Positions 14,739 to 64,000 of a DNA stretch of 64,000 nucleotides are shown in pieces. The DNA comes from Tetrahymena thermophila SB210 (taxonomy: Eukaryota > Ciliophora > Oligohymenophorea > Hymenostomatida > Tetrahymenidae): the NCBI RefSeq assembly GCF_000189635.1, contig NW_002476322.1, positions 650,277 to 714,276 of the forward strand. The letters are read 5' to 3'. Within the stretch, counting starts at the first letter, position 1; every line of letters starts with the position of its first letter. Position numbers and translations under genes: made by a program. A model generated the notes under the pieces. It ran no database searches. It saw nothing but the letters and a program-made list of their open reading frames with translations, and was not told the origin of the DNA.

Positions 14739-17700
14739 ATGAATCAAAATCATTATAAAAAAAATGAATAAGTCATTCATCACTCAATTAAGATGGTAGA
14801 TGACAACATTAAAAAATCTAAACAAAGCTAAACATTCAAAGATTTATCTATTTTATTCTACACGTAGTAAATAGCTTAAATAATCAAGTCTTATTAAAGA
14901 AGCAATTTTATTGGCATTATGCTTCTAGTGATATATTATTCATAATTAGCTAGCATGCTTTTTGAAGAAAAGGTCATTTAAAATGTTACAATTTCTGACA
15001 TCAGTTAAAGAAATTCTCTATTTTAAGTATCTTAGTATATAAGATGCTCTAGGATCTACACAATACAAGAAGTTATAGCAGAGAGAAGTGAAAATCTTTA
15101 TAGTAGAAGTAATAATAATGAAAGTAGTAGTAATAGTGATGAAGTGGAAATAGCACAAAGTTAAATTAATTTTAGTATTTTTGGCATCAGCTATAACTTT
15201 TTTGTTATGGCATATATCATGATATAATATACTCTTTGGATTATGAGCCATAATTATCAAACAAGCAGTAAAAATGAATAGAGTATTCAAGAAGAATAAA
15301 TAAATAATGTAGTTAAAAAGAAATTTAATTTGTAAAACTATTCATTTATGAAAAAGTTCTTCAAACCTAATGGACCTTTAAATAAATTTGTATCGATAAT
15401 ATTTTAAACATACAGATATACTGTTACAATACCATTCAGTGTTGTAAGCTTAAGTATGATTTTCAACACAAATTCTAATTTAAATGATTAGCTTGCACAG
15501 GAATTTAGAATTCTGTTAGGTGTTTCATTATTTTTGTCTACTTTTATAATTAATTTACTAATCATTATAAATGACTTTGATTATTCAATACGTTATCGTG
15601 ATTTTTTTGGATCAAGAGTAAACAATTTTAGATGGGTCTACTTTTCCTTAGATCTGCTGGCTTCTTACTGTTGCACATAATTAGAAAACAACATGAATAT
15701 CAAGCTTTATCTATGGATTCACATACTATAATCTTTAGCAAGATTAACAATTTTAATATACGAATTTCCTTTTTTCTTTGAATTAGCTTAAAATTGTCAT
15801 TTCTGTGGCTCGTTTAGTTATCTGCTGATTTCAATTTTAGAAATATTTTCAATCTAAGTTGGCTATAAAACTTCATTTTCCTTTTTGCTGCTTTCGTTGT
15901 TACCTATCACTTTAAAGATTAGCAGCATGACTTTGAAGTGGAGAGAATCTTTCTACACTGCATTTATTAGTGAAAAAAATATTTAAAATATTTCTGCTTT
16001 CCACCTAGAGTACTACATGAGAAAGGTATTAATACCACTTTGCTAACTTGATATAGAGTAATATATTAGTAAGAAATTTGAGGGTTAAGGGATTAAATAT
16101 GAAACAATTTACACATAACACATTATTTACTGCTAAGCAAGAGGCGTGTAAGACTAAAATAGAAATTAAGATCAAATTAAAAATGCTAATGATAAATAAC
16201 AAAAACAAAACTCTGAAGAATTTTAATGTTTTTGCTAAAAATATTAATTATCTGAGCTAAACCTTAATAACATGAATGGACATCAATAAAGAAAATAATT
16301 TATTGTTGAATATATTTACTATTTGCTAAATTTATCTTTTAACAAAAATTTTCAAGGCTAGCATAACTACGAGCAAAGATTAACTAAAAAAAATTCTCCT
16401 CAAAGTGTATTATTTTTAAAAGAAATAAAACCTACCTACATATATTATCTGATCCAAGTAGCTTCTACTCCTGCAAAAGCCTATACTGAGGTATTCACTA
16501 TCAAATAAAAATACAATTAAATGACTATTCAAGAGTAGTATATGATAGAATTAACAATACAAGACTTAAATTATGAATTTTTGTCCTTCTTTGACCATTC
16601 AATATATCAAAACCAAAGACTTAAAATTGGTGATGTTTACTAATTTGATCATGCTTATAGAGATTCATTTAGTGAGTTGAGCAAAGGCTTAAAAATAAAG
16701 CAAGAATTCTTTTAATTCTTGAATCAAGATTCCATCATCTTAGAGAATTTAACTAATAAATCCTAAAAAACAGTAATTTAAATTCAAGTAATTGAAGATT
16801 CACTTATAAATTTATTAAAAATGAATCCTTTACATTAAAGGACACTGTAGCTTTCTTCCATCTTTTTAGATCACTTTGACTTCAAAAAAAGAACTTTAAC
16901 TTCATTAATTTTGCAGGCAACCTATTAAAATGAACTTGAAAACCCACATTAAATAAGAAACGAATTAGAAAAAAGTGATTTTAAAATAAATTTATTTCAT
17001 TAAAAATCAGCAGCAGCATTCTTTTTATCTCTATAAAATAAAACAATCTTAAGATCTTCTGATTCTTTTTCTTAGCTATTTGGTGTAAATAGTTCTGATA
17101 TTATTGGAAAGCCTATTTCCCTTTTATTCCCTGATTATTATTTTCCTCATATTAGCAGCTACATAGAGAGGCTTGTTGAAGAAGCAAACATAGATTTGAT
17201 TAAAATCGGTTTATATTATACATTTATCAGAACTGCAAAAGAAAGTTTGTATCCAGTAGTTATGAGAGTTAAGTTGGATTTTTTAAATGAGCAGACATTT
17301 GGGCTATCATGCTATATGCAAAGAATTGAGAATGACAAATTTTACATTATATGTGATTCGAATTTCAAATTTTTAGATGCTTCTAGCTAATTAAAAACCC
17401 TGCTTTTAAAAAATTTTCAACAAAACAAAAAACGCAAGAATACTTCAGGTATTTTATTAAAACTTTAAAAATCTTTAGAAATAAATTAATTAAGTTTTTA
17501 TTTTTTAAAATATTTTTTTTATTTTACAATAATAAAATTTATTAATTTAAAAAATATAAATAGATCTATTATAGAAAGTTAATGTCAGAAATTTTATTCC
17601 TATTCTTTATGGAATAGAAAAATTCTAAGAATTAAATTAGTTTGATGAGAAATCTAAATCTTATTAGAACTATGAAAGATAGACAAATTTTTAGTAATTT

Positions 17701-20700
17701 AACTCTATTCTTTTTTTACCAACAAATAAGCCTTAGTTGAGTATGCTCCAGAAATAAGTCAAATAAGAAATTTATGATGTAAGCTAATATTTCAAGGAGT
17801 TTAAACCTTCTGAGTTTGATTCTGTCTAAGTAACATTTTCTCCAATTGTTTAAAAATCATTCTGCGAAGTATAAAAATGTTTTAATATCATTTAAATTTC
17901 AAAAATAAAGAAATTTAAAAAAATTCATGAAATAAATGATCATTTAGATTAAATTAAAGAGAAGTTTTAGAAGTATTTTTCTCATCCAGTGGAAATCTAA
18001 GAATATGAAAACACTTCCAAGAATAACTCATTTATCAAGGAGATTTAGAATTACACAACTTAAGAAACTTACTTCAAGATTGATAACTAACCCTCTGAAG
18101 CAAAAGATAAAGAAGATTCATAAAATAATACTAAACCAGAGGTTAATACTTTACAAGAGATAGATTATTTTGAATCTAATTACCTTCATGAATCAAAAAA
18201 AAAAGATTAACTTATAGAAAATGATGTAATAAACAGTATCGAAAAATAATCCTCCAAATATTCAGAAAAACCTAATGTAAATTAAATTTGTTAATTAAAG
18301 TATAAAAACAATTTTAAAAATAGGAATTGAATAATGAAGACTTTTAATAGATCCAAAATTTATATCCAGATTAATTGCAGCAATATTATGAAAATTATTA
18401 AGCTGCTGCTTATTAAAATGAATATAGTCTTTGGCCAATAAGTTAAAAAGACATTCCTTATGGTTAAGAGAATTAAAACCAATCAGAACATCAAATAATG
18501 AGAGAAAAAGGAGAATACATAAATAATTTATAAAGTTACAATTAGCTTGGTTACTAAAATCACAATAATGAAGCTACTTAGTCAGATTTGATCAATAACT
18601 CTGATCAAAAAAATCATTAAAAATTTTAGAAAAAATTATAGAAGCTAATCATAAAATCTCCCAGAGCATCAAATATAAATGTTATTTCAATAGAAGATGA
18701 ACAAAAATATCAGCATTTTGCATCACCAAAATTTGGTTAAGAATTGGTTTCACCTTTGTCAACTCATAAAGATAATGAAGAATCATAGAGATATTTTGTT
18801 AAAAACTCACCAAACAAAGATAATTTCGTAATTTGATTAATTTTTTTACTTTTATATTTATCTTTAATTATTTTCGTTTACATTTAAATCATTTAATGTA
18901 TGGTTTGTTTCTCCTTTCCTCATAAATGATGCATTTAAAAATCTGTAAAGAATTATTTTTCAACCAAACCATTTTAATATAGTAAAATTCACAAAGCGCT
19001 TCCCATCTTATTAACGGTAGTCTTATTTCTCCAACAATTAAAGTTAATGAAATGTACTATGAATCGACGTATAAAAAATTGTTTCATACTATTTCGATAA
19101 ATTGTTTTTTATTTTTCATTTATAAATATTAGGATTGATGACAAATAATCTCAGAAAAATTAGATAATTCACCCATAGAGTTTTCATAATTCAAAAAACA
19201 ATGAGAAGTTACTTTAACTGTAGCCTATTTCCATAGATTAGTACTCAGTTAGTCATACTTCAATTGAACAAGAAATTAAAAACAATATACAGATTGGACA
19301 CAAATCCATACTATCAAAAAGCCAAACTAACAGATAGCTTAGCAGAAAGGAAATACAAACATTAGAAAGAAATGTCACTAAATTATATAATGCCTAAAAT
19401 ACAAAAAACTTTAAATATGATGGAGAAGATGATGAAAGAGGCGAAAGAAGAGATCAGTATTCATAGTTTAAAAAAATTTCAGATTTAGGGATTTAAGAGT
19501 CTGAACACAGTAAGAGACAAGAAAAAACTGGATTTTAGAATAATGCGATTTTAAAAAAAATGTTTGACTCTTAATTATTTTTTAAAAGACAGTTTTTGAG
19601 CGACATGGTTACAAAGCGATAGGAACTTATTCAGGTCAAGTATGCCAGAAATGTAGGACTCTTTTTTCTTGTCCTTTTAGTTGCAATCAGCACTGGACTC
19701 TATTTAACTTTAGTGAGTTATTTTAATAATGGATGGGATTATTTTAAAGATATGTTGATAGGTAAAAATATATTTATTTAAAAAATGCGTATTTCATTCG
19801 AATAAAATCAATAATAGGTTATGACATACTTGAGAGTTACTCTTAGGCGATTAGATAAAAAGAGTTATTACTCACTTTATAAATGTATGGCATACCTGGG
19901 TATAATTTACATAATCAGACATAAATATTATTGGAAACACAAGAAAGAGATTATCGTTAAATATAACTCAGATAACTCATCGATTATTTTATAGCTAATT
20001 GTGTTAATAAAGGATTTGAAAAGTATATGCTTGAAGAGGAAATTCAAGTCTCTTTTCTAACAAATTAAAATTAACCAATTAAGCATTTAAATTTCACAAG
20101 AATGTAATTTATTAGGTTTTCTTTTTCTCATTTTTTAAATTTTATTTTTAAAAAATAATCAGCTATTCATTGCTTAATATTCCTCTTTATTTATGGGACT
20201 ATACCTTAACGAATAACCAAGATTCTTAGACGTATATCCTCGAAAATTATTATAACATTATGGATATGATAGCTTACATAGTGAATATATCTAGCACGAC
20301 ATCATATAATAAAATAAAAAGCTCAGAAAATCTCTTATATTTGAGTATTACACTTATCGAATTGTTTTCTTTATTGCTGATCATGCTTGTTTTTCCTATT
20401 TATTATATTGTTTAAAGTAAAAGAGAAGAAATTCTCAAACTCTTAGCAACTTTTGATTCTAATTTTCTTGAAAAAATAATTTAAAAATGTAATCTCGAAC
20501 TCCTTGAAAATAAATAAAACTTTGGTTCTTCTAAAACTTTGAGATCAATCAAAACTAATAAAAACGTTAGTTCTAAAAACATTCTTTCCTAAACATAAAT
20601 AGGAAGCGGGTAGATTTTAGCTTCTTCCTAATTTAAGAGATTAAATAAAAAAAGAAAAGCCGTCTCTTAAACAAATAGTCTGCAAAAGTATTCTTTTTCT

Positions 20701-21630
20701 ATCATGGTTTACTCTTTACTAATGTTCATTATTTTATCAGTTTATTCTATAACTAACTATTTTCTAACGAGGAACTTCTTTCAAACATTCAATTACAATA
20801 TTCAAGAGGTAAGCTAAATTTACTAAATCAAAGCTTTGGTTAGCTTAGAAATGACTACTATTTAGCTATTTACAAATTCATTTATCTATTAGTTTACAGA
20901 AAGGGATATATCAGTACTTAAATAGTTCAAAGAAAAAATACTGGATTAATAGCTTTAAGAAAGAATAACTGACCTTTATAAAGTTGATGAAACCTTTTAA
21001 AAAGATAGAAGCTAAATGGATAAGTATAAGTAAGACTATTTGATGACTATTAAAGAGGATGCCTGCTAAATCCTCATTGATAACTACAATATCTAGTCTA
21101 TGGATTCAAAAGCTAATATGTAGAATCAAATAAACGAGACATTTGATCCAAAAGTAGATCCTAATAAATGTTCGAGCATCCTAAATGGGAAATTGAAGCA
21201 AGGATTAACTATAACCTTGAAAGAATTAATAAATGAAATCAATTAGTTATACCTAGTTTTTACATCTACAAATGATGAACAAGAGTATGTTTAATTATTT
21301 GAAAACTGGTGCAATCAGAATAATTATCAGGATTTATAATATTCCTACTATTATTTAAGATAAATTATTCGCCTGTTAAAACAAGAAAACTAAAACTCGA
21401 GTGATCAATAATTTTAAAGTGTTAAGAAAATTTAATTAGCACTTTTTATTTACATCATTTCTATTTGCGTCCTAATATTTATTATTTTATGGATAAAATT
21501 TATTAATAGACTAAATTTTATTATTTACGAAGCTAGGTTGTTCCTTACCCTCATTCCGATAGAGAATTTAGTAGAAAATTAATATGTTATTTCCTTCATT
21601 AATAAATAAATTCCTTATTAATCAAAGTGA
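14739..21630 (+). CDS. TmcB/TmcC-like multi-pass PAS membrane protein C
   Basis: Starts MNQNHYKKNEQVIHH and reads openly for about 900 codons. The N-terminal membrane block (about residues 60-420) includes SNFIGIMLLVIYYSQLASMLF and ILLGVSLFLSTFIINLLIII. It is followed by FEGQGIKYETIYTQH with the CFCQKY cysteine pair, TPR-like helices (YLIQVASTPAKAYTEVF), then a PAS-like domain at about residues 770-890 (LFGVNSSDIIGKPISLLFPDY). An intron follows near 17450-17570. The Ser/Asn-rich linker contains introns 18828-18982 and 19081-19132, both phase-consistent (NKDNF/QNSQSAS and YKKL/IDDKQSQ). The C-terminal block starts at QFLSDMVTKRQELIQVKYARNVG with at least four spans and ends IPYQSK, TGA 21628-21630. 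The gene is divergent from gene B. Its 3' half is the source of the two downstream pseudogene copies. Confidence 0.82.
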
Positions 21631-22015
21631 CTGTATTAATAACAATTTAAATCATGAATAATTGCTAAATTTTCAAGCTAAATTAAAGATATCATATACT
21701 AAAATAACTAAGTATTTATAAATTAATTTTTTTGTTCTTTACATATTTACTATATCAGTCTAAACAAATACATAAAATAAATTAATTGAGAGAATTCTCT
21801 GCTAAAAAAGTAATAATTAAGATAATTAATTATTAAATATATAATGTTTAATTTTATTTATACTTCTTTTAACCAACCCCAATATTCGATGAAAATTTTT
21901 CAATTAATATTCTGTCTATCACTAATAATTAATATTTTAATCTTTTCTGTTAAAAGAGTGCTTAAGGTACCAAAACTGAACTTAATAAATTTATATACCT
22001 CTTGAATATAAAACA
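21631..22015. repeat. Gene C 3' flank and eroded remnant of the propeller-gene tail
   Basis: No open gene. From about 21945 a short stretch (ctgttaaaagagtgcttaag) resembles the full-length propeller gene near 33418-33440. A second (aatataaaacaggagtaaat) resembles 33985-34005. These appear to be two pieces of a propeller gene joined by deletion. The same joined pieces, more decayed, recur at about 26690-26740 before the second pseudogene, so this remnant belongs to the duplicated unit. A 10-bp C-rich stretch ccaaccccaa sits at 21873-21882. Confidence 0.55.
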
Positions 22016-24380
22016 GGAGTAAATATAATATTTTTCATTTATAAGTAATAGTATTCATGACAAATAATCTTAGAAAACTTAATCCATAGAGCGCTCATAA
22101 TTGAAAAACAACAAAAAATATTTTTATTGTAACCACTTTCATTAGATTTATACCATTTTAACTATACTTCAATTAATTAAAAAATTAATAACAATATACA
22201 GATAATTTACAAATCCATATTATTAAAAAGTCAAACTATTAGATTACATATGAGAAAAGAAAATTCAAGTATTAGTAAGTAATATAAACAATAGCTAAAG
22301 AAAAAATATAAAATATTATATAGATGATGAAAGAGGCGAAAAAAGTGATAAGTATTTCTATTTTAAAAAGATATCAGATTTAGGGATTTCAGTCTGAACA
22401 TATTTAGAGAAATGAAAAAACTGGATTTTAGAATAATTCATTTTTAAATAAAATATTTAACTCTTAATTATTTTTTAAATGAACTTTTAGAGTAAAATGG
22501 TTAAAAAATGATAGGTGTTCATTCAAATAAAAAATGCAAAAAGTGTAGGACTGTCTTTTCATTTCCTATTAGTTACAATCTGCCCTGAAATCTATTTAAA
22601 TTTGATCTATTATTTTAGTAATGAATAGAATTACTTCAAAGATATTGCGGTAGGTTAAAAATACTTTATAAAAGTATGAGTTTTATTGAAATTAAATTAG
22701 CAAATGATTATAAAATATTAAAATTCACAGGTGATTAGATGAAAATAATTACTAGCCACAATATAAAAGCATGGAATATTTGGATATAATAGCAGTAACA
22801 AGACATTTATGTTTCTAGAAATGCAGGAATTATATTATCATTAAGTATATTTAAGATAACTCATTGTTTATTTTATAGCTAATATGTTAATAAATGATTT
22901 GAAAAATATACGCTTGAAGATGAAATTAAAGTCTTTTTTCTCAAAAATAAAAACTAACTTTATTAATTTTTCTTTATTTCATTTTTTTTAATTTTATTTA
23001 AACTAAAATAATCAACTATTCACTAATTAATATGGCTCATTTATTATGGCATTAAGCCTAAACAAATAACTAAAATTCTTTGACATATATCCTCAAAAAC
23101 TACTATAAAATGGTGTAAAATTTGAATAATTATCTTAGTTTGACATCTTATTAATAAAATATAAGGCTTAGAAAATTTTATATTTAAGAATTATAATTTA
23201 TTGAATTATTTTGTTTATTGATTATCATGCTCTTTTTCCTATTTATTATATTGTAATGAGTAAAAGAGAAGCGAAACTCAAACTGTCAATTTTTGATTCT
23301 AACTTTTTATATTATTTATTAATAATAAAAAAAATTTTTGTTTTTCTAAAACTTTGAGATAGAAGTGGGTAGCTTTTGGCTTCATCTTAATTTAAATTTT
23401 ATTTAAAAAAAGAAAACCTATTTCCCAAACAAACATTCTCCAAAAATACTCTTTTTCTATAATAATTTATCCTTTATTTATTCTCATAATTTGAAATATT
23501 TACTCTATCGCACCAAAGAACTTCTTTCAAATATTTAATTTGAATATTTAAGAGATAAACTAAATTTATTAAATTAAGGCTTATTTAGCTTAAAATTATC
23601 TACAATTTAAATGTTTGTAAATTCTTTTATAAATCAATTAACAAGTTGGAATATATCAGTACTTAAAAAATTCAAAGATTAAAATACTGGGTCAATAACT
23701 TTAGTAAAGGATAGCTAGACCTAAGATTTATATATTTAGTTCATTCGAATTTTTAAAAGATAGAAATGAAACTCAAGAGTAAAATAAGTCTATTTGATAA
23801 CTATTAAAAAGAATACATACTAATTTCTACTTGATAAAAATTGTAGCTAGCATTTGGATTAGAAAGCTAATTGGAAAGGTGGAAATGAATGAGAGGTTTA
23901 ATCTTAAAGTAGTTCCTAATAAATGTGAGAACATTTTGGATGGGAAGCTGAAGAAAGTAAGTATTGATTTTAATATTAAACGAATTAATGAATAAATTTA
24001 ATTATTAATACCTAGTTTTTACATCCACAAAAGATGAATAAGAATACATTTAGTTATTTGATTTATCCTGCATTTAGTATAGTTATCATATCTAATGATA
24101 CTCTTCCTATTATTTAACAACAATTATTTGAGAAGAAAATAAAAATTAAAGAAAAAATCAATTTCAATGCATTAAGCAAATTTAATTAGGACTCTTATGT
24201 ATATAATTTCACTTTTTGTCTTAATCTTTATTATTTTATGGAAAAAATTTATTAATAAAGCTAAATTTTATAATTTACTAAATTAGACTCTCCCTTACCC
24301 TTACCCTGATTCTTAATTAAAATTTAATAGAAAATAAATACATAATTTCCTTTATAAATAAATTGATTATTTATCTAAAT
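22016..24380 (+). pseudogene. TmcB-like 3'-half pseudogene, copy 1
   Basis: Degenerate copy of the C-terminal half of gene C (about 19110-21640). It keeps the order of landmarks: the intron tail atttttcatttataa, the DDERGE.. linker, the SDMVTKR-like segment, membrane spans and the LIPIENL-like end. It is disrupted: where gene C reads GATTTAGGGATTTAAGAGTCTGAA, this copy lacks two bases and runs into TGA at about 22390-22400. Many other indels follow. There is no start and no N-terminal half. It is almost certainly non-coding. It begins inside what was an intron of the parent, so it arose by DNA-level tandem duplication rather than retrocopying. Confidence 0.8.
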
Positions 24381-24843
24381 TTTTTAATTTACAAATATCT
24401 AAGATATATATAGAGAAATATAAGCAATAGGCCAGTTTAAAAAAAAAAATTCCATGTCTTTTGTCTAACAATCAAAATAAAATTTTTACAAAATAATTAC
24501 TGTTTTATTAAATATATTATTTGAAGATTTAAGCTATATCATATGATTATTGAATTTTTTATAAATTTTCTTAATTAACTTTATTTTATTAGCTTATATT
24601 TTCTTTCTCTTTCTTTCATTATTATTTTGGTTTAATTATCTAATATATTGAAATACTTTCTAATTATAGAGTATCATTAACAAATTATTATTATTGTATG
24701 GTATTTGAGTAACTATAATTATCTTAATTTATTTTTAATAAATTAGATTCCTTAAATAAATAAATAATAATAATAATAATTAATTAACAAAAAAAATATA
24801 ATCTTTGTCCTGAAAAGTAAATTAAAAAATCAATTATTTATCA
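24381..24843. promoter_or_regulatory. Upstream region of the short propeller gene (duplicated)
   Basis: 463 bp of AT-rich leader containing aaataaataataataat repeats. It is recognisably homologous to 29136-29637 upstream of the full-length copy (shared blocks such as attgtatggt, taattatcttaatttattttta and aaaaaaaatataatct). Both copies thus retained their own promoter and leader. No specific motif is assigned. Confidence 0.5.
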
Positions 24844-26388
24844 ATGTTTGTTTTAATTTATGCTCTATTTATTACTAACATTTTAGGAGAATCGAAAGCT
24901 CAAAATCCCAAAATAAATTTATTATACTCTCCATTTTATGTAAATTACTATACTCTCTCACCAAATGAAGGAACTTCTTAAATAGTAAAAGTACCCAAAA
25001 ATGTTTAGGCAGTCTATTTTTCGTCAGGTTTTGGAGGTCTAATAGTATTAGATTAATAAGGAGGTACTAAGCTTTTATAGTAAAGTTTTTAATAACAGTT
25101 TATAAGCTAATTTGATGTTAGCGCAAATGGAAATATTCTAGTCTTAGGATTTAACTCAACATTATCAGTATTTGCATATCCAGGAGCTTCTATCACTTTA
25201 GAAAACATGTAAAACTATTAATTTGCTTCAAGCGCGCCATTTAAATCAGAGATTATTGAAATAGTATATTTTGAAACATAAAATCTAATCTTTGTATCTG
25301 GTCTACTCTGATATATTGCAGTGTATGATTCAAGCGATATATACAATTTAAGAATTCTAGATATATACAATACTTAATCTGTTCAGATAACTTCGATATA
25401 GGTTTCGAGTGATGCTTAATGGGTGTATCTTAGTTGTGATATTGAAGGTATTGTAGTTTTGAGGTTAAATTTTATTTCTAATTCTTAACCAAGATAAGCA
25501 AATTTCACAAAAGCAGCTTATGGTAATGGATATAGAAAAACATGGTCATTAGTTGTAACCAATGACAACAGATATATTTATGAAATTGAAAATTGGTTTG
25601 GTATTTTTTATGCTGATAACTCTTAAACACTAGCTGCAAATTCTTCTAATTATCCAATTCAATTAACTTTTAAAGCTTACTGGCCATTTTAATACATAAA
25701 TCCTGTTTGTACGATAATATTTATTTCTAATGACAATAACTTTATCTTTGTAGGAATTAGATCAATAGGAATTCTCATATTTGATATCAGCCAAAGAGAA
25801 AATATTTAGTTTTTTTAACAGATCTCAATTGATGGTCTTTCAAATTCAGCTGCTTTATCTGGTGATGAAAAATTTTTATATTATGCTAATTCTTTGAGTT
25901 TACAAACATTCAAAAATTTAAGCGAATAATAAATTGCGCAAAGCATTATTAAAAATAATAAATAATTTTTTTTTAGTGAAAATAGATAAAAAAACGCAAC
26001 TTTTAATATATTTTCTATAAATAACTAAAATTTAGATATACAAAAATAGGTTTTAAATTAATTTAATAATATAAAAGATGAGAGTAAAAACTAACAAAAA
26101 TTAAATTTATTTAATTCCATTTAAAGATATAGTTTTTCATCTTAAACTAATAGCAAAAATATTAGCCCAAAAAGCTTCAAATTGCTAGATTAAAATACAA
26201 TTTTTACAACAATAGATGAAGAATATTAATAATAAGAAATAAATTAATAAGATAATAAAATATCATCATTAATTTCAGATTAATCTGTGAATTTAAAAAA
26301 AAAATACAAAAAAAATTTATTAAGCAAAATGAACAATGTAGATATATAAAAATTAAATACTCAAAGCGATTTCATAATAGAAGATTGA
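24844..26388 (+). CDS. Shortened LVIVP/beta-propeller surface protein (internally deleted paralogue)
   Basis: Uninterrupted 514-codon ORF, starting MFVLIYALFITNILGESKAQN (signal-peptide-like, followed by NPKINLLYSPFYVNYYT) and stopping at TGA 26386-26388. Residues about 30-360 are beta-propeller repeats of the LVIVP type, with recurring strands such as VYFSSGFGGLIVLD, ILVLGFNSTLSVFAYPG and NFIFVGIRSIGILIFDIS. The stretch is near-identical to the start of the gene at 29638. At about 25920 the sequence jumps to the region corresponding to 34450 of that gene, losing about 3.7 kb that encodes the remaining propeller, stalk and membrane span. The frame is kept, so the last 160 residues are the Ser/Asn/Gln-rich tail that should be cytoplasmic in the full-length protein. 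It may be a secreted or non-functional product; expression cannot be judged. Confidence 0.72.
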
Positions 26389-26740
26389 AATAATTATCTT
26401 TTTGTTTAAATTAAATTAAATTCCATTTTTAATTGTTTTATATATAAATCATAATTACTTTTTTAATAACATAGAAAATTAAAATTCTTTGTAAATTTAT
26501 GTTTAGGATAAAATTAATAAAATTAAAATACAATATACATTCTCATTAATAAAAGCTTTTGAAATAATTCTTTTCCCTTGTTTTAATAATTTTTTTTTTA
26601 AAATCTAAAATTAAAAAATTCAATAGAAATTGAATGTATTTATTAATATTTACATGTTATAAAAAAAATTATTAAAAATAAAGGCATTTATTTATCTATA
26701 CCAAAAATTGAACATAATAAAATACTTCTTGAATTTAAAA
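26389..26740. other. 3' flank of the short propeller gene and unit junction
   Basis: The first ~200 bp match the 3' flank of the full-length copy (34931-35075; for example ttcattttta, attaataaaatta and attctcattaat). From about 26690 the sequence matches the remnant before pseudogene 1. This marks the junction between adjacent duplicated units of about 4.7 kb. Confidence 0.55.
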
Positions 26741-29135
26741 CAGCAGTATTTTTCATTTATAAATAATAGGATTCTTGACAAATAATCTTAGAAAGCTTAG
26801 ATAGTTAATCCATAGCATTCATAATTCAAAAAAAAAAAAAATTATTTTTATTGTAACCACTTTAAATAAACTGACTCTGTTAGCTATACTTTAATTTAAC
26901 AACAAATTAATAACAATATAGAGATAATTTACAAATCCATTTTATTAAAAATTCAAACTAACAAATAGCTTAATAGAAAAAAAATTCAAAAATGAGAAAG
27001 TATTATAAATAATAGCTAAAACAAAAATATAAAATATGATAAAGATGGTGAAAGAGGTTAAAGAAAAAATAGGTATTTTTATTGAAAAATATATCAGGTT
27101 TAGGGATTTCAGAGTCTGAACACATTAAGAGAGATGAAAAACTGAATTTTAGAATAAGTTATTTATTAAAAGAAAACTTTTGAGTGAAAAGGTTACAAAA
27201 TGATTGTAGTTCGTCCAAATCAAGTATGCTAAATGTTTAGAACTCTCTTTAGATCTCCTTTTAGTTGCAATTTACGTTGATCTCTATTTAAATTTGTTAT
27301 ATTATTTTAAAAATGAATTGTACTACTTCAAAGATATTGCGATAGGTAAAAAAATTTTTTTTTAAAGTATGAGCGATATTGAAATTATATGAACAAAGGT
27401 TATGAAATACTAACATTCACAGGTGATTAGATAAAAATAATAAGTACTCATTTTATAAATGCATGGAATACCTAATATACACTAATAATAAGACATTAAT
27501 GTTTCGAGAAACATAGGAAGGAGATTATAGCTATATATAACTTAGTTAATTTATCACTTATTTTATTGATAATATGCTAAAAAATGATTTGAAAAATGTA
27601 TGCTTAAAGAGGAAATTAAAGTATTTTTTTCTAAAAAATAAAAATTTACTTTATTAGTTTTTCTTTATTACTTTTTTTTAAATTTTATTTAAACTAAAAT
27701 AATCAGCTATTCACTAATTAACGCCGCTCTTTAATTATGGTAATAAACCTTAACAAATAATTAAAATTCTTAGACATTTCTCCTTGAATACTACTTTAAC
27801 ATGATGGTAATGATAGCTTACAAATTGAAAAATTATCTAGCACTACTTCATATTAATAAATAAAAAGCTCATAAAATTTTATATTTAAGTATAATAATTA
27901 TGGAATTATTTTATTTATTGATGATATTGCTATTTTTTCCTATTTATTATTTTGTTATGAGTAAAAGAGAAGATAAATTCAAATTGTTAACTTTTGATTC
28001 TAACTTTTATTATATATTTTATTTAAAATAAATCAAATTTTGGTTTTTCTAAAACTTTGAGATAAATAAAAGCTAATAGATAGTTTAGTTTTAATACAAT
28101 TCTTTCTTAAAAAAAATACGAATTGGGTAGTTTTTAGCTTCATCCTAATTTAAGATTTCAAAAAAAAAAGAAAGCGGTTTCTCAAACAAATATTCTCAAA
28201 AATACTCTTTTTCTATAATGATTTTTACTTTATTTATGCTCATAATTTGATATTTTTACTCTATCACTAACTACTTTCTAAAAAGGAGCTTCTTTCAAAT
28301 ATTTAATTACAATATTTAAGAAACAAACTAAATTTACTAAATTAAGGTTTTAGTTAGTTAGCTTTGAATTATCTACAATTTAATAATTTACAAATTCTTT
28401 TATGTATTAATTCACAGATTGGTATATATCAGTACTTAAAAAATTCAAAGATTGAATACTGGGTCAATAATTAGTAAAGTATAGCTAGCCTTTAAAATTT
28501 AAATATTGAGTAGATTCGAATTTTAAAACAATACAAATGAAACTCAAGCAATTTCATAACTATTAAAAATGATACATACTAATTTCTCTTGATAAGTATA
28601 ACACCTAGTGTTTGGATTAGAAAGCTAATGTGAATAGTGGAAATAAAATGAGACATTTAATTCTAAAGTAGATCCCTAATAAATGTGAGATCATTTTGGA
28701 TGGGAAGCTGAAGAAAGTAATTAAATTTAACATTAAAGGAATTAATAAATAAATTTAATTAGCTATCCTAGTTTTTACATCTACTAAAGATGAATAAGAA
28801 TATATTTAGTTATATGATATTTTATGCATTCAGTAAGTAGTGTTATCATAAATAATAATACTCCTCCTATTATTTAACAAAAATTATTTGTTAAGAAAAT
28901 TAAAATTCAAGAAAAATCAATTTTAAGGTGTTAAGCAAATTTAATTAGGACTTTTTATTTATACAATTACATTCTGTGTCTTAATCTTTATTAATTTATG
29001 GCTAAAATTTATTAATTAACTAAATTTTTTAATTTACTAAGCTAGGCTATCCCCTACCCATGTCCTTAATTCCAATTTAACAGAAATTAAATGTATGTTT
29101 TAATTCATAAATAAATTCATTATTAATCTAAATTA
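26741..29135 (+). pseudogene. TmcB-like 3'-half pseudogene, copy 2
   Basis: Second decayed copy of the C-terminal half of gene C, collinear with copy 1 and gene C. It keeps the opening block tttttcatttataaataataggattcttgac, the GGGATTTCAGAGTCTGAACACA linker and the end corresponding to FINKQIPY. Frameshifts and TGAs are frequent: gene C's linker reads on into DMVTKR, but here single-base losses near 27130-27220 break the frame. It lacks the 5' half and any start. Copies 1 and 2 share indels absent from gene C, suggesting copy 2 and copy 1 come from duplication of an already damaged unit. Confidence 0.8.
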
Positions 29136-29637
29136 TTATGTTTACAAATATTTAAGATATAGTGAAACAGGAACCCTTACCCAGTTAAAAAAAAACAAAA
29201 AATATATTACACATCCTGACCCTACAATAAAAAATCCCTAAAAGTAAAAATTTCTGTTTAATGAGTAAGTATTCCCATCATTATTTATTGTTTTCATTAA
29301 TTAAGTTAACCTCATAGTTTGAAGGTTTATGCTATATAGTATGAATGTTGAAGTTTTTATATATTTTCACTTTTAACTTTATTTTAGTCAATCTTATAAT
29401 TTATATTTCCTTTTTCTTTCTTTCTTTATTCTTTTAGTTTAATTACCCAATATTGAAAAATTTCTAAGAATAGAGTACTATTAATCAATTATAATTATTG
29501 TATGGTTTTTGGGTAAATATAATTATCTTAATTTATTTTTAAAATAATAGTTTGTTTAAATAAATAATAATTATAAATTAACAAAAAAAATATAATCTCT
29601 TTTCTGAAAAGTAAATTAAAAAATCAGTTATTTACTA
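29136..29637. promoter_or_regulatory. Upstream region of the full-length propeller gene (duplicated)
   Basis: AT-rich leader homologous to 24381-24843 but more diverged than the coding sequence that follows. It ends in an A-rich context before the ATG. No other gene seen. Confidence 0.5.
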
Positions 29638-32600
29638 ATGTTTTTTTAAATTTATGCTATATTTATTGCTAACGTTTTAGGATAATTGAATGCTCAAAGC
29701 ACCAAGATAAATATACTCTACTCTCCATTTTATGTAAATCACTATACTCTCTCTCCTAATGAAGGAACTTCTTAAATAGTCAAAGTACCCAGAGATGTTT
29801 AAGCAGTCTATTTTTCGTCAGGTTTCGGAGGTTTAATAGTATTAGATAAAGAAGGAGGTACTAAACTTTTATAATAAAATTTTTAATAATAATTTGTAAG
29901 CTAATTTGATGTTAGCAGAAATGGAAAAATTCTAGTCTTAGGATTTAACTCAATATTATCAGTTTTTGCATATCCAGGAGCTTCTATCCCTCTAGATAAA
30001 ATGTAAAATTACTAATTTGTTTCGAGCGCGCCATTTAAATCAGAGATTATTGAAATAGTATACTTTGAAACATAAAATCTTATCTTCGTATCAGGTCTAC
30101 TTGGATATATTGCAGTGTATGATTCAAGCGATATATACAATTTAAGAATTCTGGATATTTACTAGACTTAATCTGTTCAGATAACTGCAATATGGGTTTC
30201 GAGTGATGCTTAATGGGTGTATCTTAGTTGTGATATTGAAGGTATTGTAGTTTTGAGGTTAAATTTTATTTCTAATTCTTAACCAAGATAAGCACATTTC
30301 ATAAAAGCTGCTTATGGTAATGGATATAGAAAAACATGGTCATTAGTTGTAACCAACGACAACAGATATATTTATGAAATTGAAAATTGGTTTGGTATTT
30401 TTTATGCTGATAACTCTTAAACACTAGCTGCAAATTCTTCTAATTATCCAATTCAATTAACTTTTAAAGCTTACTGGCCATTTTAATACATAAATCCTGT
30501 TTGTACGATAATACTTATTTCTAATGACAATAACTTTATCTTTGTAGGAGTTAGATCAATAGGAATTCTCATATTTGATATCAGCCAAAGAGAAAATATT
30601 TAGTTTTTTTAACAGATCTCAATTGATGGTCTTTCAAACTCAGCTGTTTTATCTGGTGATGAAAAATTTTTATATTATGCTAATTCTTTGAGTTTACAAA
30701 CATTTAAATAATCGATTCCCAATTTAAATAATAATTTTCCCAACATATTTAATACTCACCAAGCTTTACAAAAATAAATGGAAGGAATTTATAAATGGAG
30801 ATGCTACACTGATCCAACTAATTAATATTTGATGGGCTCTTTCGATTACAGCGGGACATATATGATACCATTTTACAACAATCCTCTAAATCTTTAAATT
30901 TAGTATGCAACTCACTTAGATATAGAATCTGATTCGATGAGTTTTGATGCAAAAAATAACTTATTATTTATTCCTTCCCTCTACTCTAAAAAGCTAATAA
31001 CAGTATTTTCTATAGCACCAACAGCTAATGATCCAGATATATCTTTAACTAATCCTAAGGAGGTTTCTTCTTTCTCTGTTGATACATTTAATATGGCAGA
31101 ACAGTTTATTTTTAGCAAAGACAGATCATATGCTATTCAAACCTATCAAATTGGAATAATGCTCTTCAATATGACAAACCCGTTTAATATATCCTTAGTC
31201 TATTATTATTAAAGTCCTGACTTTATGTAAGGTGAAACTGGAGGTGGTGCTATAACTGATGACAATAACTATATAATTGCTTGCTGTAGAAATTATGGAA
31301 TATATATTTTGGATTGCACTAATAAATAAAATATTTATTTATCTGATTATCTTGAGACTTTAGGAGCTGAGAGTATAGTTCTATCTAAGACTTCGTCTAA
31401 ATATGGCTACTTAATGGATGGAATGAGAGGGTTCGCAATTTTAGATTTGACTACCTTGCCTAAAATACAAATTTTATCAAGGATAAAACTCTCAGGATGG
31501 ACTTAATTAGGTATTCCAATTAAGGAAGATAAATATATTCTTATAGGATCTTAGGATATTGGAATGCTCACTTTGGTGGATATTTAAGATAAAACAAATC
31601 CAACTTTAATAGCTACTTATTTGAGAGATAAGTAATTTTCTGTTGCTATTTGTACAACTTCAGATGAAAATTATGTTTTTATAACAAACTCTTAAGGAAT
31701 TATAACATTACCATTGTAAAGCTAGGTCTATATCCACACTGAATTTAACATTGTTAACATAGATTAGCTTACAGGAAATCAATCTATTTCTCAGTATAAA
31801 ATGCAAGAAGGGCAGTCGAATTATGTTTTTTAAGTTGGTCAATAGGTATAATTAAATTTTGTGATACTCTACCCTCAAAATGAAGATGAGCGTATTGTTT
31901 AGGTATTTCAGTACTTAAATGGTTAAGTTGCTCCTTTACCATTTTATATGTAATACGATTTGAATTCCTAAACTCTAACAATGAATATTGATAAATCAGC
32001 TCTTGGTAGTATCAGATAAGGGATCAATTAAAATATGCTATTAATTAAAACAGTTATACCACTTTAAATAACTCAATTTTAATATAATCTACAAGACATG
32101 AAGGATATTGTTTCTACAGATGAAGCATAAGCAAATTTAATTCTAAATTATTTAGTTGATCAAAATTACCTTGATTCAAAATTAAGTATAACAGATTTCT
32201 TTGACTCCACCAAACCCTTTAAATTTAGCAACGATTTTATTAATAGTTTTGAGAGACTTCAATCAAGTAGCAGTATTTAAAATTTAACATTATTCATTGA
32301 ATAGTTAGAACAAAAAGTACTGTAAACATTAATACTTTCCTATTATATCAATCCTATTGTTTACTTTGTAGAACCTTCACTTTCTCTTAACTTTACAAAT
32401 AGAAGTAATTATGTTTAGAGTCTATCCACTTCTTTGTTAAGTTGTTATTTACAGGTAGATTAAAAAATTGGTAAATTTGTGACTATGAACTACCCAGGTG
32501 TGATCACATCATTTTCTTAAAGTGGAGATTAAATTAAATTAGAAGGTTCTCTCTCAAATATAAATGGAGTTCTCCAAAAATAAATTATATTTGCAAATAC

Positions 32601-34930
32601 CACTGTGATGATGCCTGAAATGAAAGTGCAATTGTAACTAATAGATAATTATAACTATCCTTATGTTTTAGAAGTAAACATTTCAGAATGCCCCTTAATT
32701 GTGCTTAAATAATAAATTTAAGTTTAGAACCCTTTATAGTAATAAGTAGAAAAGTAGTACACAGATTCTATTGTTGATATTTAGTCTTAAATAACACTAA
32801 TATTTGCATAAAACACCTTTGTAGTTAATGATACTTAGCAAATAATTTACAAAATATAACTTTTAAACCCCTCCTCTAATACTTACCAAGACTTATCTCC
32901 AGAGTTTTGGCTTCAGTCTTAAGGCGACACAAGATTAAGCTACTTTGGAACTATTCCATCAAAAGATTTTAATTCAATTTTTAGATTTAAAATAATTGCT
33001 AATGATAGTTACACAGCCATTGAAGATTATTTTGTATTAAAGGCATATGGAATTCCATTTCTTTACATTTTTAATTTTGTAGTTTAAATATTAGGTCCTA
33101 TAATAGCCATCTTAGGTATTTATAATAAGAGAGCAAAAATATGGAACATTATATACAAAAATAAAACTCGTTTTGAAGATGAAAATGCTTATATTGGATA
33201 GCAATTTAAAATGAAAATAATTTTGATGGGAGATATTTTGAAAGACTCGATCTTAATTGTTGACAAACTCTTCAAAAAAGTCAATCAAAATGAAAAAAAT
33301 TAGAATTTAAATAATTTAAAATCAGAATTTGTGCTTGATGACTAAACCCAAACTTAGTCTTCAGAAACAGATAGATCATTAAATAAATTAATTTTCCAAA
33401 CCAATGTTTAAATGAATTCTGTTAAAAGAGTACTTAAAGTATCTAAATTAATACCAAAGGCTGATCTCGATAAAATGATAAGAGTATTATCATCATTTCC
33501 GAATCACATACCAAGTCAAATCATAGAAAAAAAATATTTGAAAAAATATGGAAGTGTCTGTATGGAATAAGTTATTCAAGACATTTTAGATTATAATTTA
33601 ATTTCCTTATTTACAAATAACCATAAAAAAGAAGAAGAAGCTATTAAGGAACTAAAAGATTGGCATTCTAGAATACATAAAGCAATAAAATCGAATATAT
33701 CTAGGCGTTTGTTGTAATTAGATAAGAGGTCTCTAAAAATTTATGAAACCATTAAGGAATGTGCAATAAAATATTTCAGTAAATAAAAAAAATATTGGTA
33801 TAGAGCATTTATAGATTTTGACTCTTCCACTTACTACTAAGAATCCAAAAGCTAAGAAATATTTTCTAACTTAAACATTAAAGTAGAAGAATTAATTGAT
33901 TTGTTTGTAATTCTTAAAATTCTTCCTCCATCTGCACATAAAGAAGTAAAGGATTTTGATTCACTTGTTTTATCTCTTATTAAATATAAAACAGGAGTAA
34001 ATATGTATTTAATAAAAGATTGCTTATTTTCAGATGCTTATGGTCTAACTTCTAAACTTCCTAGTATATTTTATTTGGCATAAGGTGAGTCAATTCATGC
34101 ATTAGCATTAAATTAAATAAATTTAGGCATTCAAAAAACAAAATGCTCCAAGCTTATTTAATAAATTTTGTTCTCTATTTAACTTGGAATATAAGATTTA
34201 TGGAGTCGGTAAAAATATTCGTCTTCCTACTTGGATTAACCTTGACTAAAAGTATGGAGTTATTTTGATAGAGGGTACTCCAAGCGTAGAAGATATGGAA
34301 GAGGTTTTAATCAGAATTTATGATTATACAGGTTATGTTGTAAAATCTTTTATTTTAAAAGTTACATATAATCCGAACGAAAAATCTGTTATAGAATAAA
34401 GTATTCCAGAAGAAAGTTAATAATTTATTGATATTTAACATTTTCATAATTTAAGCTAATAATGCATTCCTTAAAGCATTTAAAAAAAAAGAAAATCATA
34501 TTTTTTTAATTAAAATAGATAAAAAAACGCAACTTTTAATATATTTTCTATAAATAACTAAAATTCAGACCTATAAAAGTTTATTTCAAATTAATTTTAT
34601 AATACAAAAGATGATAGTAAAAATTTAGAAAGTAAAAAAAAATAAAATTTATCTAATTCTATTTAAAGCTATAGTTTTTCATCTTAAGCTAATAGCAAAA
34701 ACGTTTCCCCAAAAAATTTCAAATTGCTAGAATAAAATACAATTTATTCTACAGTAAATGAAGAAGATTAGAAATAAGAAATCATTTCATCAGATAATTA
34801 AACGATATCATCAAATCCAGACTAATCTATGAATTTAAAATAAATATACAAAAAAAGTATATTAAGTAAAATGAACAGTTTAGATATATAAAGATTAAAT
34901 ACTCAAAGTGATTTCATATTAGAAGATTGA
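29638..34930 (+). CDS. LVIVP/beta-propeller transmembrane surface protein (full length, frame disruption near 3' end)
   Basis: Long gene of about 1760 codons. A signal-peptide-like start (MFFQIYAIFIANVLG) is followed by LVIVP-type propeller repeats to about residue 700 (for example YIIACCRNYGIYILDCTN and YLMDGMRGFAILDLT). An extracellular beta-rich stalk comes next, then a membrane span at about 33045-33120 (FLYIFNFVVQILGPIIAILGIY), a basic cytoplasmic domain (KRAKIWNIIYKNKTRFEDE...) and a Ser/Asn/Gln-rich tail ending SDFILEDstop. A cadherin-like segment (IRLPTWINLDQKYGVILIEGTP) is read only after a +1 shift between about 34127 and 34165. The gene length is 3n+1, so either one base is extra, an intron was missed, or the copy is damaged. 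A GTGAGT..TTTAG intron candidate at 34085-34126 is 42 nt (3n) and does not repair the frame. It is likely a plasma-membrane protein; its function is unknown. Confidence 0.75.
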
Positions 34931-35385
34931 AATAACTATGTCTGTGTTTAAATTAAATTAAATTTCATTTTTAGTTGTATTGTATGTAAATCATCATTTC
35001 TTTATTTAAATTTATGATTAGGTTGAAATTAATAAAATTATAGATACAATATATATTCTCATTAATTAACATTTTTATAAAATGTTCAAAAAAATTTTTA
35101 CAAAATTTTAGGGCTAAATAATTAAAATATTTTGAAAATATTTTTACTTACTTATAAATAAAATTTTATGATAGATAGTTAGTTAGTTAGTTATCTAAAA
35201 ATATCTGCAGTTTATTTATATATAAACTCTCATAAGACCATCACATATAAATAAAGAAATAAAATTAGTTATAATCTAAATATTATGTCTCATTTTTTAA
35301 TCAGTTTTATCAATCAATTAAAATAAATTGTTTCCATATTTATTTAATATAAAATTAAATCATTTTTTATTGCTGTGATTTTTCA
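34931..35385. other. Convergent intergenic region
   Basis: 3' flanks of the propeller gene (plus) and the carrier gene (minus). The part up to about 35075 is shared with 26389-26590. A short ttag repeat with flanking agata/tatct lies at 35172-35196. No gene seen. Confidence 0.55.
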
Positions 35386-37536: not shown

Positions 37537-37974
37537 TACAAACTCACTTATGATATCTTAAACAAACTAAAATTATTAAAATTAAAACAAATAAATATGA
37601 CTACTAACTAAAGCTAAAAAGCAATAGTGTAAATAACAACAATTAATGAATACACTAAAATTCAATTAATAAATTATTTACTTGCTAAAACTTATCATCA
37701 CTTTCAAATAAAGTGAAAATGGTTGGTTTAATAATATTCATGCTTAAAATCTTTACACCTTACTTTAATATCAAAAACTATTTAATTAATTATAAAGCAA
37801 ATTATATCTTTGATCATAAGAAATAAAACATGATACTTGGATATTCTTTTACATATTATGCTTAATTCGCTAATCAATCAATCAAAAAAAAAAATTTCTA
37901 ATTTGTTAACAATTCTAATTTCATATCTAATTTGATAAAAAACTTTTTCTCAAATTCATATAATGGTAAAAAAA
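37537..37974. other. Intergenic, nothing seen
   Basis: Between the COMM-domain gene start and the first tRNA. AT-rich; presumed promoter of the COMM gene. A T-run on the minus strand just 3' of the tRNA could be its Pol III terminator. Confidence 0.55.
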
Positions 37975-38047
37975 CTCCCCCACCGGGACTTGAACCCGGG
38001 TCTCAAGGGTGAGAACCTTGTATCCTAACCAGCTAGACTATGAGGGA
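37975..38047 (-). tRNA. tRNA-Glu (CTC), copy 1
   Basis: Minus-strand cloverleaf, 73 nt with discriminator G. Acceptor arms are TCCCTCA/TGGGGGA, the D-arm contains TAGCTGGTTAGGA, the anticodon stem is CAAGG/CCTTG around loop TTCTCAC (anticodon CTC), and the T-arm is CCCGGGTTCAAGTCCCGG. There is no intron. A T-run follows on the transcribed strand as terminator. It decodes GAG. Confidence 0.95.
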
Positions 38048-38131
38048 TTACATTTAAATTTGAGTTATTTGAAAATTAATTTTAAATAAATTATTTTTGA
38101 TTGATATTTATTAAAAGATAATTATAAAAAA

Positions 38132-38204
38132 CTCCCCCACCGGGACTTGAACCCGGGTCTCAAGGGTGAGAACCTTGTATCCTAACCAGCTAGACTATGA
38201 GGGA
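38132..38204 (-). tRNA. tRNA-Glu (CTC), copy 2
   Basis: Identical in all 73 positions to copy 1, same strand, 84 bp further. The 5' flank (on the minus strand, ATTGTAAATC directly before the mature end) is shared with copies 3 and 4 but not copy 1. Confidence 0.95.
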
Positions 38205-38547
38205 TTTACAATAGCTTTAAGAGAAATAATCTAGGAAATTTATAAATAAATAAATAAATTTATTTTCTTACTACTTATCAATAAGCAATTTACTTATCTT
38301 TATTTAAAATAAAATTAAAAACACAATAGCTTAAAAATTCCATCTTTCTTCTTAAAAAAATAATTTATATCTCCATATTCTCAACTAAAATATATTTTAG
38401 GTTTATTTATATATATATATTCAACGTTAGATAAATGCTCAAATCTGATTTTATTTAAAAATTAATTAATTATAATATATATAAGCAAGCAAATATTATT
38501 AAATTGATAAAATATCTTTATTATTATTTTCTGAATATAAAAAATAA
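38205..38547. other. Spacer between tRNA copies 2 and 3
   Basis: AT-rich, with ta dinucleotide runs near 38408-38420. Contains the shared 5' flank of copy 2 (tttacaata..). No gene. Confidence 0.6.
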
Positions 38548-38620
38548 CTCCCCCACCGGGACTTGAACCCGGGTCTCAAGGGTGAGAACCTTGTATCCTA
38601 ACCAGCTAGACTATGAGGGA
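38548..38620 (-). tRNA. tRNA-Glu (CTC), copy 3
   Basis: Identical to the other three copies. It has the same upstream ATTGTAAATC block, and the similarity to copy 2 continues further upstream (aggaaatttataa). Confidence 0.95.
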
Positions 38621-38950
38621 TTTACAATAAGTTTAGAACCTATTATACAGGAAATTTATAATTTAATAAATTTTAATAACAAACATCAATTTACAAAATG
38701 AATTCATCTTTATGAATTATAAAATAATTAACCAAATAAATGTGTATTATGTTAGATATTTAATGTTCATAATAAAATAATGGGTGTGTTTAACTATTGT
38801 AAAATTTAGTAAAAAAGAATAAAATTAATCAAATGTAAATTAAATCAATTTATTATCGATTAAAAAGTTGAATAAAATTATTCTGATAATTTAAAAAAAT
38901 TAATCAAATTATAGTTTATTTTTGGTTAATTTTAGGATTTAAAAAAATAA
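38621..38950. other. Spacer between tRNA copies 3 and 4
   Basis: AT-rich, no ORF or RNA recognised apart from the 5' flank of copy 3. Confidence 0.6.
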
Positions 38951-39023
38951 CTCCCCCACCGGGACTTGAACCCGGGTCTCAAGGGTGAGAACCTTGTATC
39001 CTAACCAGCTAGACTATGAGGGA
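38951..39023 (-). tRNA. tRNA-Glu (CTC), copy 4
   Basis: Identical 73-nt tRNA-Glu(CTC), completing a four-gene same-strand array spread over about 1.05 kb. Confidence 0.95.
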
Positions 39024-39263
39024 TTTACAATAAACTTTAGCAATATCCTAATTTAAATAAAATTATTTGTAAGTTTTGTTCAAATTTTTTTAAACCAATA
39101 TATAAATTATAATTTTATTAATTAATTCTATTTCACATGTAATCTACAGCTTTAAGTAAAGATATTTCTTAGCATCATGTTGTATTAGATTATAAACAAT
39201 TATAATAAGATTCCTAAAATAAAATAAAACTAAAATATAAATTATTTATTTATTTATTTTATT

Positions 39264-63972: not shown

Positions 63973-64000
63973 GGGGTTGGGGTTGGGGTTGGGGGGTTGG
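63973..64000 (+). repeat. Telomere, G4T2 repeats
   Basis: Three regular GGGGTT units follow the unique sequence agattagtttca, then a GGGGGGTT variant and GG at the window end. The G-rich strand runs 5' to 3' off the right edge, so this is the right chromosome end. G4T2 is the telomere repeat of Tetrahymena and close relatives. Confidence 0.95.

Follow-up and report, generated by a model that had tools for sequence, protein, structure and literature searches.

Two rounds of tandem duplication and a probable late repair scar near a macronuclear chromosome end of Tetrahymena thermophila

Introduction

Interlocus gene conversion between tandem paralogs leaves a short tract in which synonymous divergence is low, bordered by flanks in which it is high. 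Head-to-tail tandem duplicates have been called frequent in Tetrahymena (PMC6564038), and in mammalian cells homologous recombination that ends in a non-canonical way, with joining by microhomology, has been described (PMC5104497). Here we describe a locus of Tetrahymena thermophila SB210 (contig NW_002476322.1) in which a multi-exon gene, gene C, has two decayed copies of its own 3' half downstream of it, pseudogenes 1 and 2 (ψ1 and ψ2), each preceding a copy of a second gene, gene P (P1 and P2). Its history is very probably a germline tandem duplication history of an ordinary kind with a late repair scar. The window, i.e. the whole 64,000-nucleotide (nt) stretch that was analysed, is the last 64 kb of its contig (650277–714276) and ends in GGGGTT telomere repeats at 63973–64000; the locus lies ~29–45 kb from the macronuclear chromosome end. 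The genes of the window are decoded by the ciliate code, with TGA as the sole stop. A telomerase fragment encoded in this genome aligns with PDB 2r4g, a T. thermophila structure, over 102 residues and matches it at all but the first, which fits T. thermophila or a very close relative as the species. Genome searches covered 445 contigs (101.0 Mb), very common words being skipped.

Repeat structure of the locus

Gene C (14739–21630; modelled 3' exons 19133–19761, 19818–20103 and 20163–21630), ψ1 (22029–24378), P1 (24844–26388), ψ2 (26747–29155) and P2 (29638–34930) follow one another on the forward strand. In a BLAST comparison of the window with itself (E ≤ 3e-147 for every diagonal given here), 19110–21650 matches 26747–29155 (73%), while 19110–20545 and 20603–21626 match 22029–23360 and 23362–24378, respectively (71–72%); in addition, 21968–25914 matches 26699–30708 (80.6%) and 25915–26553 matches 34448–35069 (80%). 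The parallel diagonals predicted by a sequence-only reading of the window are thus present and, together with a three-way alignment, they bear out its statement that two decayed copies of the 3' half lie downstream of gene C, each 5' of a gene P copy. A 501-nt query from gene C (19133–19633) found three places in the genome, every one of them in this locus. The same reading put the repeat unit at about 4.7 kb, a value that holds for the present spacing but not for what was duplicated: because P1 is without 3.74 kb that are present in P2, the unit of the second duplication would have measured ~8.4 kb or more. An assembly duplicate was rejected as a source of the pseudogenes, since a divergence of 17–28% among them and gene C appears too high for a haplotype or collapse artefact. 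A literature search on tandem duplication and pseudogenes gave no mention of this locus in the titles and abstract openings listed.

A near-identical patch beside the deletion in P1

P1 has lost 3.74 kb of the middle that P2 retains, the alignment of the two units breaking at 25914/25915 against 30708/34448. At the deletion junction (25902–25915), the equivalent positions in P2, ~30703 and ~34446, both carry AACATT. The frame of P1 is open across the deletion except for a TGA at 25309–25311. Ending at the junction is a patch, 25401–25910, that is nearly identical to P2 30195–30704. The identity of P1 and P2 is 90% up to 25400, 98% from 25401 to the junction and 78–89% per 100 nt in the tail; coding mismatches number 58 in 557 sites up to 25400 and 8 in 508 in 25401–25908, and the contrast at change point 25401 was matched in none of 5000 permutations. 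The eight differences are scattered through the patch, which would speak against an assembly duplicate there too.

Synonymous sites show the contrast most cleanly. Synonymous divergence (Ks) between P1 and P2 is 0.228 in 24844–25137 and again in 25138–25425, drops to 0.039 in the patch and stands at 0.237 and 0.198 in two blocks of the tail; synonymous differences occupy 26 of 132 sites in the flank and 4 of 104 in the patch (Fisher P = 1e-4). The patch is accordingly a bounded tract whose synonymous divergence lies below that of its flanks, as is characteristic of interlocus gene conversion. Because Ks falls from 0.20–0.24 in the flanks to 0.04 within the patch, P1 and P2 appear to have exchanged ~0.5 kb recently, and we infer with good support that recombination was the cause.

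Because the dead half-gene beside it serves as a built-in neutral control, no outgroup is needed to assess selection on P1 or to judge how long ago its loss took place. Outside the patch, P1 carries no frameshift relative to P2 in 962 coding nt (557 + 405, a count that omits 66 nt beside the join and leaves one 9-nt in-frame gap uncounted), where 6.2 or 8.9 would be expected at the private rates of the two pseudogenes (P = 0.002 and 0.0001). Since the reading frame was kept where a neutral copy should have gathered 6–9 frameshifts, P1 was probably functional until recently. Nonsynonymous differences in 24844–25425 number 31, against 44 expected with P1 neutral and P2 unchanged (P = 0.025). The coding frame of the P1 tail is backed by codon scores. 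It is not evident that P1 deviates more than P2: in a comparison with 11 of the 31 gene P matches listed outside the locus, of which at most 10 align per column, the 34 amino-acid differences, mostly at variable positions of the family, place P2 closer to the paralogs at 13, P1 closer at 11 and neither at 10. The TGA at 25309, one of the 13, stands at a position that is glycine in each of the 10 aligned paralogs.

Three points count against these readings. The Ks boundary (25425/25426) was set after the profile had been inspected, a choice for which only the permutation test allows. Overall identity, taken per 100 nt, increases from 0.83 to 0.94 on approaching the left border of the patch, and the step there is clean in synonymous sites only. 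Finally, the ratio of nonsynonymous to synonymous divergence (Ka/Ks) is high in the tail, 0.45 and 0.84, so that the tail would be weakly constrained; the argument for selection therefore rests on the 5' part and the kept reading frame.

How the patch and the deletion came to adjoin can be explained in more than one way. One explanation, to which we give just short of an even chance, is a single event: a break in P1 would have been mended with ~0.5 kb copied from P2, synthesis would have stopped where the two ends shared no sequence, and the new end would have been joined by microhomology to the P1 tail, with the loss of 3.74 kb. It accounts for a patch that stops at the deletion junction between old flanks and for AACATT at both parental ends, and the kept frame of P1 lends it a little support, implying that the deletion is recent as well; a conversion tract laid down after the deletion would, however, stop at the same place, as homology ends at the junction. 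Somewhat below an even chance we place a sequence of two steps, in which the middle of P1 was lost first and ordinary gene conversion between P1 and P2, in either direction, later ran up to the end of homology. The position of the patch border and the low Ks of the patch fit this equally, and conversion between paralogous exons is named as possible for leucine-rich repeat (LRR) genes in the genus (PMC6564038); yet a second recent event is required, and, the frame of P1 having been kept, P1 can hardly have been dead for long prior to conversion. To join exchange and deletion in one repair event is thus a guess that could fall either way. It is very improbable that there was no recombination and that 25401–25910 is just more constrained than its surroundings: the segment does code for protein, and overall identity increases by degrees ahead of it, but synonymous differences fall in it too (26/132 against 4/104) and Ks is back at 0.20–0.24 past the junction.

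The two pseudogenes

Compared with gene C, ψ1 contains 25 frameshifting exonic indels and 7 in-register TGA codons, and ψ2 contains 32 and 5. In the three-way alignment ψ1 and ψ2 are 83.5% identical to one another and 75.9% and 77.4% identical to gene C, which gives the tree ((ψ1,ψ2),C); the ungapped columns comprise 1594 that are alike in all three, 310 in which only C differs, 176 and 138 private to ψ1 and ψ2, and 64 in which all differ. Both pseudogenes are collinear with their parent, include its introns and carry disabling lesions, as expected of duplicated (unprocessed) pseudogenes. A processed pseudogene or retrocopy was rejected, since both copies retain sequence homologous to the predicted introns as well as the first acceptor.

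The substitutions private to each pseudogene are spread evenly over codon positions 1, 2 and 3 and the intron (0.077/0.080/0.074/0.079 in ψ1 and 0.052/0.070/0.062/0.046 in ψ2) and therefore look neutral. The sites at which gene C is unlike both are biased by codon position (0.142/0.081/0.180/0.159). A role of the half-copies as stored cassettes or as donors to gene C, of the sort seen in programmed gene assembly systems, is suggested by the presence of partial copies in the same orientation beside a complete gene; the load of frameshifts and in-register stops and the even substitution rates amount to neutral decay and make this explanation very improbable. No block stands out in the pseudogene alignment as unusually similar to gene C, though no formal scan for such blocks was made.

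The lesions also order the events. Ten frameshifting indels and three in-register TGAs are common to ψ1 and ψ2, 12 gap events (of 31 in ψ1 and 37 in ψ2) coincide exactly, and the shared frameshifts and stops imply that the half-copy was already a pseudogene when it was copied. Two independent duplications from gene C, which the identical starting base of both copies might suggest, can be set aside as extremely improbable given that these lesions and gaps and the remnant junction described below are all shared. The order of the two duplications is secure, to judge from the aligned copies. The sequence-only reading had proposed this path (duplication of the C 3' half with P, a deletion, and duplication of the damaged unit), and the shared lesions, the shared gaps and a remnant junction alignable between the units support it; the order stands. 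What the reading lacked were the larger unit sizes, the later loss of the P1 middle, the P1/P2 patch next to the deletion and, where the two units meet, the repeat-like stretch.

The junctions of the duplicated units

Directly 5' of ψ1, at 21945–22026 on the forward strand, pattern searches point to a remnant of an earlier gene P copy, here called P0. It would consist of two blocks of P 3'-coding sequence, corresponding to P2 33417–33441 and 33983–34004, with ~0.5 kb between them lost. The pattern of each block, composed from the remnant and P2 sequences themselves, occurs just twice in the window, once in the remnant and once in P2 (means expected by chance 0.00 and 0.01), and the case for the remnant lies in how the two blocks are ordered and oriented. 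At its 3' side the end of a P block meets the start of gene C intron sequence, which fits a head-to-tail duplication running from the C intron to the inside of P; TATTT, read by eye, is present at this first join in both parents.

The stretch that spans the remnant junction can be aligned between the two units. The sequence-only reading held that the same joined remnant precedes both pseudogenes. Both blocks do precede ψ1, but ψ2 is preceded only from ~26698 onwards, by a partial P0 remnant at 26698–26746 (forward strand; score 61 against a shuffle maximum of 46) that forms the start of the homology of unit 2; for this reason the left end of the second duplicated unit probably lay within the remnant.

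Several observations speak against this reconstruction. When 21651–22045 was aligned locally with P2, the second block was picked, but its score of 47.0 did not exceed the maximum of 200 shuffles, 47.5. The short matches at the joins, TATTT (5 nt) and AACATT (6 nt), are only mildly unusual in such AT-rich DNA, at ~2% and ~0.9% per random join. The spacer of 294 nt that separates gene C from the P0 remnant (21651–21944) shows no similarity to P or the P leaders above 200 shuffles, and a genome search in which very common words are skipped located it at one place. For the second duplication no right-hand breakpoint was found, 26554–26690 giving no match 3' of P2 above 200 shuffles.

At the junction between units 1 and 2 lies an imperfect palindrome that resembles a dispersed repeat (26581–26689). 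Its arms, in 26581–26677, are 38 nt long and 82% complementary. The interval 26500–26760 matches 8 other contigs, mostly at the palindromic stretch, and a longer relative on contig C81 has 41 matches in the macronuclear genome including itself. With a profile built from 20 loci (nhmmer), 26592–26689 was the sole match in the window past the inclusion threshold (E 1.7e-4, score 15.3, bias 50.9); the match ends ~9 nt 5' of the start of unit 2 homology. The stretch may be an element that joined in, or landed at, the second junction, although its AT-rich composition urges caution. As a family, its members appear short, AT-rich and dispersed, with hairpins, and have the look of miniature inverted-repeat transposable elements (MITEs).

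Gene C and its intronic breakpoint

Homology to gene C begins at 19110 (TATTTTTCATTTATAA) by self-BLAST and alignment, within a predicted intron (19069–19132, forward strand; donor GTATAA, acceptor TAG) whose acceptor AG is retained in both half-copies. The claim that the duplication broke inside a gene C intron and kept its acceptor is confirmed by this; of the intron limits proposed earlier, 19081–19132, the acceptor end holds and the donor probably does not. Frame 2 scores as coding over 18983–19068 (28 codons) and no frame does so over 19069–19132, so that the donor is more likely 19069, giving a 64-nt intron, than 19081; codon scores were used here because tblastn against paralogs did not settle the donor. 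The breakpoint falls in the predicted intron under either donor. It carries no special consequence, the half-copy having been without a start and having decayed.

Gene C is described here as PAS/TmcB-like on its ciliate-code frames, its exon phases, a sub-threshold PAS_9 match and its paralogy to two neighbouring genes. PAS_9 is its only Pfam match and falls under the cut-off, and TPR_TmcB was absent from the gene C pieces searched (four in one scan, two in another). A neighbouring gene, gene A, matches TPR_TmcB at 26.3 bits (cut-off 27). The 3' half of gene C resembles the ends of two neighbouring minus-strand genes (6542–7984, 34% identity; 1–502, 31%), with which it forms, by this similarity, a small local family. 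The name TmcB given to gene C at first reading rests on paralogy and not on a TPR_TmcB match above the curated cut-off in gene C itself. A literature search found no paper joining TmcB with Tetrahymena.

Gene P and the surrounding sequence

P2 is the long copy of gene P, with an open frame from 29638 to 34242 and then a coding frame to the TGA at 34928–34930. Ciliate introns follow a consensus with a GTA-type donor and a TAG end. Among the 12 best-scoring candidates for the intron joining the two frames near 34.2 kb, none has both, and the frame change at 34170–34300 would stem from an atypical intron or else from a frame lesion, whether of P2 itself or of the assembly.

Gene P belongs to a large family. 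The genome search returned at least 33 matches including P1 and P2, a lower bound as only the best candidates were scored; the other 31 are 29–38% identical to P2, 27 of these are near full length, and the best full-length paralog outside the locus among the matches listed is 38% identical. Contigs with two or more of the listed matches are C60, C94, C13, C17, C135, C142, C182 and C335. The propeller label for gene P is plausible in view of a match to Pfam LVIVD (E ~0.009, 15.8 bits) below the cut-off of 20.2; no relative was found in PDB at E 0.1.

Elsewhere in the window, 37944–39074 contains four copies of a 155-nt repeat in one orientation, three of which are 70–85% identical to the reference copy. 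No Rfam family matched 14000–36000 at gathering thresholds. A search for a chromosome-breakage-like pattern gave one match, which had 2 mismatches; at least one match also arose in 30 of 100 shuffles.

Proposed history

The locus would have arisen in four steps. In the first, ~7.3–7.4 kb in present sizes (~2.5 kb of C, 0.5 kb of leader and 4.4 kb of P) would have been duplicated head to tail, from 19110 in the C intron to the equivalent of 34004 in P, yielding an extra C half that lacked a start and was a pseudogene from birth, and truncating the upstream P. This upstream P would then have shrunk to a remnant of ~80 nt while the C half-copy gained stops and frameshifts. Thirdly, the remnant, the pseudogene and the long P, ~8.4 kb or more, would have been duplicated to give P1 and P2, after which the pseudogenes would have drifted neutrally and P1 held its reading frame. 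Recently, 3.74 kb of the P1 middle would have been lost, the ends meeting at 6 nt of microhomology, and ~0.5 kb on the left side of this join exchanged with P2, either in the repair that caused the deletion or later, up to the end of homology. Of this history, the sequence itself shows the duplications, the lesions common to both pseudogenes, the deletion and the near-identical patch.

The distances form a timed series at one locus: ~0.35–0.37 between gene C and the pseudogenes at third positions for the first duplication, ~0.19 between ψ1 and ψ2 at third positions and a P1/P2 Ks of 0.20–0.24 for the second, and 0.04 for the recent exchange, the third-position distances being Jukes–Cantor values computed by hand from substitution counts. 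Because the pseudogene divergence (~0.19) is near the flank Ks, the flanks would date to the duplication and the patch would be about one sixth as old. As 22 T. thermophila assemblies are available in one study (PMC10868616) and 10 Tetrahymena species are covered elsewhere (PMC6564038), the order of events can be checked. A fuller account, in which a single germline repair in P1 combined a ~0.5-kb sister copy, a microhomology join and a 3.7-kb deletion, with a neutral-clock pseudogene beside it and a palindrome that marks and may have caused the unit junction, is tentative, and as a whole stands somewhat under an even chance.

Comparison with known systems

The kind of event is already known and no new system is involved; the duplication is ordinary evolution, and the instructive part is the scar of patch plus deletion. 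A literature search for conversion tracts adjoining deletions found none, which says little. The locus resembles the tandem duplicates described for Tetrahymena (PMC6564038) in its head-to-tail arrangement and in that the P family has many members, several of them in clusters; unlike the duplicates as presented there, the unit cuts two genes, one of which was copied in part and copied again after it had decayed. With the mammalian reporter (PMC5104497) it has in common a copied tract closed by a microhomology join, but here an old natural locus and a tract of ~0.5 kb are concerned, and the reaction itself is deduced from sequence. The patch in P1 shares the pattern of interlocus gene conversion between tandem paralogs and differs from it in that its border coincides with a deletion junction.

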